From Luteimonas sp. MC1750 (lineage in GTDB: Bacteria > Pseudomonadota > Gammaproteobacteria > Xanthomonadales > Xanthomonadaceae): a stretch of DNA of 64,000 bases. The position numbers were made by a program, and so were the translations under genes. Positions within the stretch are counted from its first letter, which is position 1. Every line of letters starts with the position of its first letter. The stretch is taken from NCBI RefSeq assembly GCF_016615955.1, contig NZ_CP067113.1:434001-498000 (forward strand), written 5' to 3'. Positions 33,079 through 34,476 of this stretch are shown one piece after another. The notes beneath the pieces were generated by a model. That model did not search any database. It was not told the DNA's origin and saw only the letters and a list, made by a program, of their open reading frames with translations.

Positions 33079-33870
33079 GTGGTCAAACCGCTGCCTCGCC
33101 TGAAGCTGCAGGGATTCAACAACCTCACCAAGGCCCTGAGCTTCAACATCTATGACGTGTGCTACGCCGTCTCCAAGGACGAGCGCCAGCGCTACATCGA
33201 ATACATCGACGAGGAATACAACGCCGATCGCCTCACGCAGATCCTCACGGACGTGGCGGAGATCATCGGCGCGAACATCCTCAACATCGCGCGCCAGGAC
33301 TACGATCCGCAGGGCGCGTCGGTGACGATCCTCATCTCCGAGCAGCCGGTGATCGACAAGGCCGACGCCAAGGGCGTGATCTCGGATGCGGTGGTCGCGC
33401 ACCTGGACAAGAGCCACATCACCGTCCACACCTACCCGGAAACGCACCCGCAGGCGGGCATTGCGACGTTCCGCGCGGACATCGACGTGGCGACCTGCGG
33501 CGTGATCTCGCCGCTGAAGGCGCTGAACTACCTGATCGAGAGCTTCGAGTCGGACATCGTCATCGCCGACTACCGCGTGCGCGGCTTCACCCGCGACATC
33601 AAGGGCAAGAAGCATTACATCGACCACAAGATCAATTCGATCCAGGACTTCCTGGCGAAGAACATCAAGGCGCGCTACGAGATGTTCGACGTCAACGTCT
33701 ACCAGGAAAACATCTTCCACACGAAGATGCACCTGAAGGACTTCGACCTCGACCAGTACCTGTTCGAGGAAAAGGCCCGGAACCTGTCGTTCAAGGAACG
33801 CATGAAGATCGAGGCGCTGCTCAAGCGCGAGATCGAGGAGCTGTTCCACGGGCGCAACCTGGTCGAGTGA
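33079..33870 (+). CDS. speD: S-adenosylmethionine decarboxylase proenzyme
   Basis: A 263-residue class 1 (E. coli-type) AdoMetDC, which makes decarboxylated SAM for spermidine synthesis. The proenzyme self-cleaves to generate a pyruvoyl cofactor; the expected Lys111-Ser112 site is visible in [17 protein letters not shown] at exactly that position. Starting GTG is at 33079. A CATAAT -10-like box lies about 40 bases upstream. The end carries [23 protein letters not shown], typical of the family. It is divergent from clp. The riboswitch 35 bases downstream belongs to the next gene. Confidence 0.97.
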
Positions 33871-33905
33871 TCCCTCTGCCGCAGGTCACGCGGCGTTGGG
33901 CACCA

Positions 33906-33985
33906 GCGGGACGGCCCGCGCGCGGACACGGTCCGCGGAACGGAGACCGACGGCGGTCCGGAGCGAAGGCTCCGGACCGTTTTTT
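33906..33985 (+). promoter_or_regulatory. Predicted guanidine-II (mini-ykkC) riboswitch with terminator expression platform
   Basis: There are two hairpins with the class-defining ACGR loops. P1 is GCGGG-ACGG-CCCGC at 33906-33919, and P2 is GACCG-ACGG-CGGTC at 33945-33958. Between them is a 7-bp hairpin (CGCGGAC/GTCCGCG, 33921-33937). The 3' strand of P2 (33954-33958) is also the 5' start of an 11-bp terminator stem CGGTCCGGAGC / GCTCCGGACCG (33954-33964, 33969-33979) with six T. P2 and the terminator cannot form together, so guanidine binding should switch expression on. The downstream gene encodes a Gdx/SugE-type guanidinium exporter, the classic target. Confidence 0.85.
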
Positions 33986-34039
33986 CATTTGCGGCGCAGC
34001 GCCGGCGCATGGTCCCGGGCAGCGCGAAGGAGACCAGCA

Positions 34040-34357
34040 ATGGCGTGGATTTATCTGGTGGTGGCAGGCCTGTTCGAAGTGGTCTGGGCACTCGGGCTGA
34101 AGTACACCGAAGGCTGGACCCGGCTCTGGCCGAGCCTCGGCACCGTCGCGGCGATGGTGGTGAGCTTCTGGTGCCTGTCGCAGGCGCTCAGGGCGATCCC
34201 GATCGGCACCGGCTACGCGATCTGGACCGGGATTGGCGCGGTTGGCGTGGCGGCCTTCGGCATCCTGGTGTTCGGCGAGAGCGCGTCGCCTGCGCGGCTG
34301 GCGTGCATCGCGATGATCGTGGGCGGAGTGGTGGGGCTGAAGCTGGTTTCCGGCTGA
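34040..34357 (+). CDS. gdx: SMR-family guanidinium exporter (Gdx/SugE type)
   Basis: A 105-residue protein with four transmembrane helices, the length of small multidrug resistance transporters. The sequence [32 protein letters not shown] carries the central membrane Glu13 in the GLFEVVWA context typical of the Gdx (formerly SugE) subtype, which exports guanidinium in exchange for protons. The second half has [29 protein letters not shown] ribosome-binding site precedes the ATG. The mini-ykkC element just upstream supports guanidine-induced export rather than quaternary ammonium resistance. Confidence 0.9.
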
Positions 34358-34370
34358 GCCACCTTGCACC

Positions 34371-34476
34371 TGTAGGAGCGGCTACAGCCGCGATCGCTCC
34401 TGCGCACCCCGATCGCGGCTGTAGCCGCTCCTGCAGGTCGGTGCGCGGGATCTCGGCTGTAGCCGCTCCTACAGGC
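34371..34476. repeat. Cluster of three palindromic REP-type repeats
   Basis: Copies lie at 34371-34396 (TGTAGGAGCGGCTACAGCCG orientation), 34411-34434 (inverted) and 34451-34476 (inverted, TCTCGGCTGTAGCCGCTCCT). They lie between the convergent gdx and coq7 genes; the last copy runs into the coq7 stop codon. Confidence 0.9.

Follow-up and report, generated by a model that had tools for sequence, protein, structure and literature searches.

A Conserved Candidate Guanidine-II Riboswitch Variant with an Overlapping Terminator between speD and sugE in Luteimonas and Related Genera

Results

Genes and RNA Elements of the speD-sugE Region

The window analysed here is a 64-kb stretch (64,000 nucleotides) of the genome of Luteimonas sp. 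MC1750, and all the features described are on its plus strand. The gene for S-adenosylmethionine decarboxylase, speD (33079-33870; TIGR03331, 465 bits with a cut-off of 255.8), is followed by sugE/gdx (34040-34357), which encodes a presumed guanidinium exporter of the SMR family (NF008512, PF00893). An earlier note on this DNA had proposed a Gdx/SugE-type exporter gene at 34040, and the protein read from the ATG at this position matches the NCBIfam SugE equivalog NF008512 above its cut-off (136.7 bits, cut-off 126), its closest solved structure being 6wk5, also an SMR-family protein. The element studied sits in the 169-base gap between both genes, that is, in the 3' UTR of speD. Inverted and direct repeats of the type CTGTAGGAGCGGCTACAGCCGCGATCGC are found downstream of sugE, at 34370-34475.

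Two perfect 5-bp stems with ACGG loops are present in the gap, the P1 hairpin GCGGG-ACGG-CCCGC at 33906-33919 and the P2 hairpin GACCG-ACGG-CGGTC at 33945-33958, in such a way that the two stems of the earlier note are exact to the base. Their loops are proposed as the first and the second guanidine-binding loops, P2 being also the putative antiterminator. The 25-nt linker between them is occupied by a further hairpin of 7 bp with an ACG loop (33921-33937), which corresponds to the extra hairpin of that note. A terminator scan called one intrinsic terminator site, at 33954-33985 (shuffle mean 0.2), and direct reading of the sequence gives an 11-bp stem, CGGTCCGGAGC-GAAG-GCTCCGGACCG, at 33954-33979, followed by TTTTTT at 33980-33985. 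The bases 33954-33958 are at the same time the 3' strand of P2 and the 5' base of the terminator, and as both structures need them, P2 and the full terminator are mutually exclusive, as the same note had proposed. The P2 loop is located 90 nt upstream of the sugE start codon, and a putative Shine-Dalgarno sequence, AAGGAG (34027-34032), lies outside P1, the linker hairpin, P2 and the terminator.

The probability of finding such a hairpin pair by chance was estimated with shuffled sequences. The 169-base gap was dinucleotide-shuffled 20,000 times without once giving two Watson-Crick 5-bp ACGR hairpins within 50 nt, and P1/P2 was the sole ACGR hairpin pair of this kind in the window when both strands were searched. 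The pattern GGGACGRCCC-N10-40-CCGACGRCGG had a single match in the window and none in 100 shuffles of it.

Conservation of the Element in Relatives

The exporter protein was used for a search independent of the RNA motif, which gave matches in 82 of 120 relatives, and the best-scoring 70 places were fetched. Sixteen of these 70 sugE places were directly behind speD, and P1, P2 and an overlapping terminator were present in 15 of the 16, with two ACGR hairpins in 14. Among the details found, one locus (L012) has the standard layout but with a P1 loop ACGT, and in another (L010) the terminator overlapping P2 contains a mismatch. At the locus L011/L277 (genome G051) sugE starts less than 20 nt past the speD stop and the entire riboswitch is absent; it was apparently lost naturally, and the exporter should be left there without such control.

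The pattern described above was also searched in the genomes of the family, where 81 matches were found in 79 of 297 genomes and in 15 of 54 genera, the reversed control pattern being found in 15 of the 297 (hand count). As called by script, sugE was downstream of 77 of the 81 matches, speD upstream of 77, and a terminator overlapping P2 was present in 75. The input for this examination was 96 loci, including seven near-duplicates from named genomes, which without L011, devoid of the pattern, left 95 matches. The terminator was not called in L072, L074, L088, L096, L225 and L267, the sugE start in L072, L092, L267 and L252 (a misplacement by the script in the latter), and speD in L072, L097, L267 and L268. 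In named genomes the pattern was found in at least 119 stretches, at least 11 of them beside sugE/speD, and the remaining 108 were regarded as matching by chance. Among the named records that carry the element by sugE/speD are Luteimonas terricola, Xanthomonas codiaei, X. cissicola, X. cucurbitae, Arenimonas daejeonensis, a Pseudoxanthomonas, a Lysobacter MAG and an unclassified Gammaproteobacterium.

The whole unit was also described by a covariance model (R1), whose strong matches (E below 1e-8) were confined to the family of the window. It was run over 250 genomes of the order, where 42 of the 48 genomes with any match belong to the family, and over 321 genomes of the class, where this holds for four of 15. 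Among the weak matches at the class level, the seven loci examined, six outside the family and one inside it, had neither sugE nor speD. The model added a further genus (code g60), in which the three loci examined (L322, L323 and L325) were all linked to speD. In L322 and L325 the P1 loop is ACGC or ACGT, one P2 loop is ATGA and the linker hairpin spans around 40 nt; guanidine binding may be altered or lost in these copies. In the locus L008/L077 (G069) the terminator stem runs through the P2 loop with 16-18 pairs, so that loop and terminator would compete more fully there.

Covariation Supports the Linker Hairpin and the Upper Terminator

For the covariation analysis, 83 distinct sequences (the window and 82 loci) were aligned by fitting them to the structure of the model. 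In this alignment 98.6% of the cells are paired and 12 of 22 pairs change on both sides; the covariation score was 0.403 vs 0.142 ± 0.007 after shuffling, a control that leaves relatedness in, and it did not exceed 0.087 when the partners were slid. The pairs with changes on both sides include all six modelled pairs of the linker hairpin and 5 of the 11 terminator pairs. The alignment of homologous leaders suggested in the earlier note thus shows covariation in the linker hairpin and in the upper part of the terminator, while the lower terminator, made with the strand common to P2 (33954-33958 in the window), hardly varies across the 83 sequences. At one position of this strand, the combinations of P2 strand, shared base and terminator strand were A-T-G in 48 sequences, G-C-G in 30, A-T-A in three and G-T-G in one, with a gap in one; to judge from these combinations, pairing with both partners is respected.

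The loops are ACGR in 80 of 83 sequences for P1 and in 82 of 83 for P2, with loops out of consensus in three sequences (L012, L322 and L325). These loop counts and the invariance of the P1 and P2 cores are partly built in by the search pattern. Both loops are ACGR in 14 of the 16 motif-independent speD-linked loci described above, and the loop conservation expected from the earlier note extends, as ACGR, over many genera. The outermost P2 pair is present in only 43 of 83 sequences, the conserved P2 stem being therefore of 4 bp, and the terminator call is weakened for 19 of 83 sequences by the presence of four T or fewer in the eight alignment columns past the stem. The linker folds into a hairpin in 82 of 83 leaders, a set collapsed from the loci remaining after omission of L072, L267 and the seven named ones, and the single exception (L252) comes from an error in parsing; against mononucleotide shuffles the fold has a modest mean z of -1.6. 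A role of the linker hairpin itself in ligand binding was considered and rejected, as both its sequence and its length vary (around 40 nt in g60).

These data also bear on the simplest explanation of the region, an ordinary intrinsic terminator of speD in which the ACGG hairpins are chance or mere decoration of a GC-rich terminator and sugE is transcribed from a separate downstream promoter. A terminator is indeed expected behind speD: in the genus, 21 of 30 speD loci have no sugE behind speD, and a script finds a terminator of at least 10 pairs within 150 nt in 7 of the 21, or in 14 when its rule is relaxed so as to admit doubtful calls. However, such an explanation leaves aside that many genera conserve two similarly spaced ACGR hairpins together with the terminator, that sugE lies behind 77 of 81 matches, that the linker hairpin between them covaries, and that chance is excluded for the hairpin pair of the gap by the shuffles, so we regard it as very improbable.

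Predicted Folding and Switching

The competition between P2 and the terminator was analyzed by folding predictions in 85 of the 95 matches. In transcripts ending just past P2, with 2 nt of 5' flank, P2 was predicted to be formed (probability above 0.5) in 79 of 85, and in 1 of 85 when the terminator was included. In the window, the predicted terminator fold (-46.7 kcal/mol) is 6.2 kcal/mol better than P2 together with the upper terminator (-40.5), and the latter alone has 6 bp (33959-33974) and stops 5 nt before the U-run. Thus, the ligand-free end state would be OFF.

The predicted aptamer fold is not reached in every flanking context. With 20 nt of upstream sequence, P2 was above 0.5 in 55 of 85 loci, and with 60 nt in 51, the corresponding numbers for P1 being 82 and 72. 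In the window, the predicted probability of P2 was 0.00 with 20 nt upstream, its 5' strand pairing with 33894-33899, and 0.99 with 60 nt, in this case with P1 at 0.03. Within 33890-33953, the predicted fold lets the segment 33894-33899 pair with the 5' strand and the loop of P2, either as a regulatory alternative or as an artefact of the folding program. An upstream GTTCGG block was also considered as an anti-P2 strand and rejected on reading the sequences, as P2 is constant while the block varies.

Taken together, we consider it very probable that the element is a guanidine-II (mini-ykkC) ON switch acting through transcription termination and gating read-through into sugE/gdx. We infer that the ligand is guanidinium, that the two loops kiss, that the direction is ON and that the control is kinetic. 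In this mechanism, a polymerase arriving from speD, or in some relatives from a promoter immediately before P1, would begin by transcribing P1, the linker hairpin and P2. Once guanidinium is bound, the ACGR loops would kiss and hold P2 closed, in such a way that the terminator would be limited to its 6-bp upper part and transcription would read through into sugE/gdx. Without guanidinium, the upper terminator would invade P2 and capture 33954-33958, and the complete 11-bp stem beside the U-run would stop transcription before sugE. In known guanidine-II RNAs the loops are ACGR and contact each other to bind guanidine in a cooperative manner, according to the part of PMC5486947 covered here. A P2 held by ligand-dependent kissing would block the last five pairs of the terminator, which fits this known mode of binding.

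Relatives Carry Two Proposed Platforms around the Same Type of Loops

Relatives with sugE elsewhere than behind speD mostly use the ribosome-site form: 43 of the other 54 protein-found sugE loci (hand count) have two ACGR hairpins near the start codon, which is the ordinary arrangement. The distance from the P2 loop to the start codon is 57-113 nt in terminator-type loci with a called start vs 26-43 nt in the ribosome-site loci with two hairpins. In a tree of the exporters built from 97 loci, of which 95 were entered, with one exporter twice (L021 and L338), the terminator form was linked to speD in 36 of 36 entries and the ribosome-site form was unlinked in 48 of 48; the remaining 11 had neither form, one of them being linked to speD (L011). 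The terminator form needs four changes on this tree, so that one or a few origins are possible, in a tree with few columns and weak deep support.

The earlier note had suggested a covariance-model search with the Rfam mini-ykkC model, and here the expected match was absent: RF01068 scored 17.8 of the 32 bits required, and in a different register (33879-33918), an outcome that the note had named as counting against its reading. The same model passes in four of the five ribosome-site-type relatives tried, whereas all 35 terminator-type loci scanned, in which one place is counted twice (L013 and L083), stayed below its cut-off. The absent match thus reflects the model, which misses the whole terminator-type set, and not the copy in the window. 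Taking the miss as a limit of the model, we class the element as a variant of guanidine-II; its score does not place it among the members. A sample of the phylum detected with Rfam gave matches in 83 of 398 genomes, and among the 30 high-scoring loci examined a terminator overlapping P2 was found in none (the script did not locate the element in L334); a lax terminator rule flagged nine of the 30, all with terminators starting at least 5 nt beyond P2. As these loci were selected by a model that misses the terminator form, the sample is biased towards the ordinary one.

The existence of both forms makes it necessary to consider a conventional translational guanidine-II element, with control at the Shine-Dalgarno sequence and a merely incidental T-run hairpin. 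The relatives include ribosome-site forms, and the class is described as translational in the excerpts available of PMC12186494, PMC9094411, PMC7544219 and PMC10907184, and as "exclusively translational" in that of PMC9561414. Nevertheless, the P2 loop of the terminator-type loci is farther from the start codon than that of the ribosome-site loci, the linker, proposed to hold the anti-Shine-Dalgarno in E. coli (PMC9094411, in part), is here a self-contained hairpin, and the 3' strand of P2 is used by the terminator in all 83 aligned sequences. A purely translational switch at this locus is thus highly unlikely in our opinion, and control by termination is the reading that we retain.

It could also be argued that the same RNA switch responds to another natural ligand, a substituted guanidine or another cation, having in mind that all 36 terminator-type entries of the tree are linked to speD and that guanidine-II tolerates methyl- and aminoguanidine, as the excerpt of PMC5486947 states. 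By contrast, the gene is a SugE equivalog of NCBIfam, from a family that is also found behind the ordinary form in congeners, and the loops are ACGR, matching those of validated aptamers. We give very little credit to a different ligand and favour guanidinium.

Source of the Transcript

A promoter scan of 33700-34100 detected no sigma-70-type site. In 24 of 84 loci, the window included, the GGG of P1 follows the final codon of speD by 12-42 nt, and these loci show no match to a promoter-like block. This block, found upstream of P1 in a subset of the relatives with longer spacing (corresponding to the region 33884-33905 of the window), consists of GGTYAC and CAGRAT or similar, around 22 nt apart. 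In its searched form (GGTBAY-N18-24-YABVMT) it was matched in 21 of the 60 loci with longer spacing and in 9 of the 43 with the ribosome-site form, against 2 matches in 975 random 105-mers. The window retains GGTCAC without the downstream half, and the absence of the block is weak evidence, as it is also unmatched in 39 of the 60 longer-spaced loci. Speculatively, the exporter of the window is fed by read-through from speD. A further idea, to which we attach a little less than even chances, is that the speD terminator constitutes a guanidine-gated valve, in which the speD mRNA normally ends there and guanidinium extends the same transcript into the exporter gene, with the consequence that the exporter output would scale with speD transcription.

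Discussion

Judged by its sequence and conservation, the element between speD and sugE appears to be a conserved terminator variant of guanidine-II, in which the expected ligand and the gene are ordinary and the platform and the linker are new as far as the literature covered goes. If this is true, the guanidine-II class would be widened from translational to transcriptional control, and close relatives would differ naturally in the platform built around the same aptamer loops and before the same kind of gene. There would be, in addition, a set of riboswitches missed by the standard Rfam model, with named Xanthomonas records among them, and an aptamer hairpin of only 14 nt that doubles as antiterminator would make a very small transcription switch.

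The earlier note had called this an uncommon form and had stated that most described mini-ykkC elements act near the ribosome-binding site. The latter agrees with the parts covered of PMC5486947, where the known guanidine-II examples are near the ribosome site, and of PMC9561414. The rarity holds for the class as described in the literature, at least in the partial texts covered, and fails within the family, where the form is common. In a survey limited to titles and the start of abstracts, no guanidine-II RNA with a terminator platform, or in the Xanthomonas family, was mentioned, an earlier mention being possible in Sherlock 2017, Reiss and Strobel 2017, Weinberg 2007 or Focht 2023.

The other guanidine riboswitches were also compared with the element of the window. 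Neither guanidine-I nor guanidine-IV gave a match at gathering score or in a permissive Rfam scan of 33700-34200, in a release that may hold no guanidine-IV model. The guanidine-I (ykkC) aptamer is a different and larger one. Guanidine-I and the element would share the ligand and a terminator-type ON control, as described for guanidine-I in the excerpt of PMC12186494. Guanidine-IV (GGAM-1), according to the part of PMC7736828 covered, is turned ON by guanidine through the prevention of an intrinsic terminator, mostly before sugE, and a loop-loop contact has been proposed for it as well, but it has no conserved ACG trimers, in contrast to the ACG loops of the window. The GGAM-2 to -6 candidates were rejected because their lineages do not fit (Table 1 of the same paper).

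The closest known system is guanidine-II (RF01068), with which the element shares the two GC-rich stems with ACGR loops, the position upstream of sugE/gdx and the expected function as an ON switch for guanidine export. The linker of guanidine-II has at least 13 nt in the great majority of cases, and the 25 nt of the window fit this, but they are filled by a hairpin that covaries. A second difference from guanidine-II is that the 3' strand of P2 is the 5' strand of the terminator. The position at the ribosome site, where the window differs, is a described property of the guanidine-II platform and not of its aptamer.
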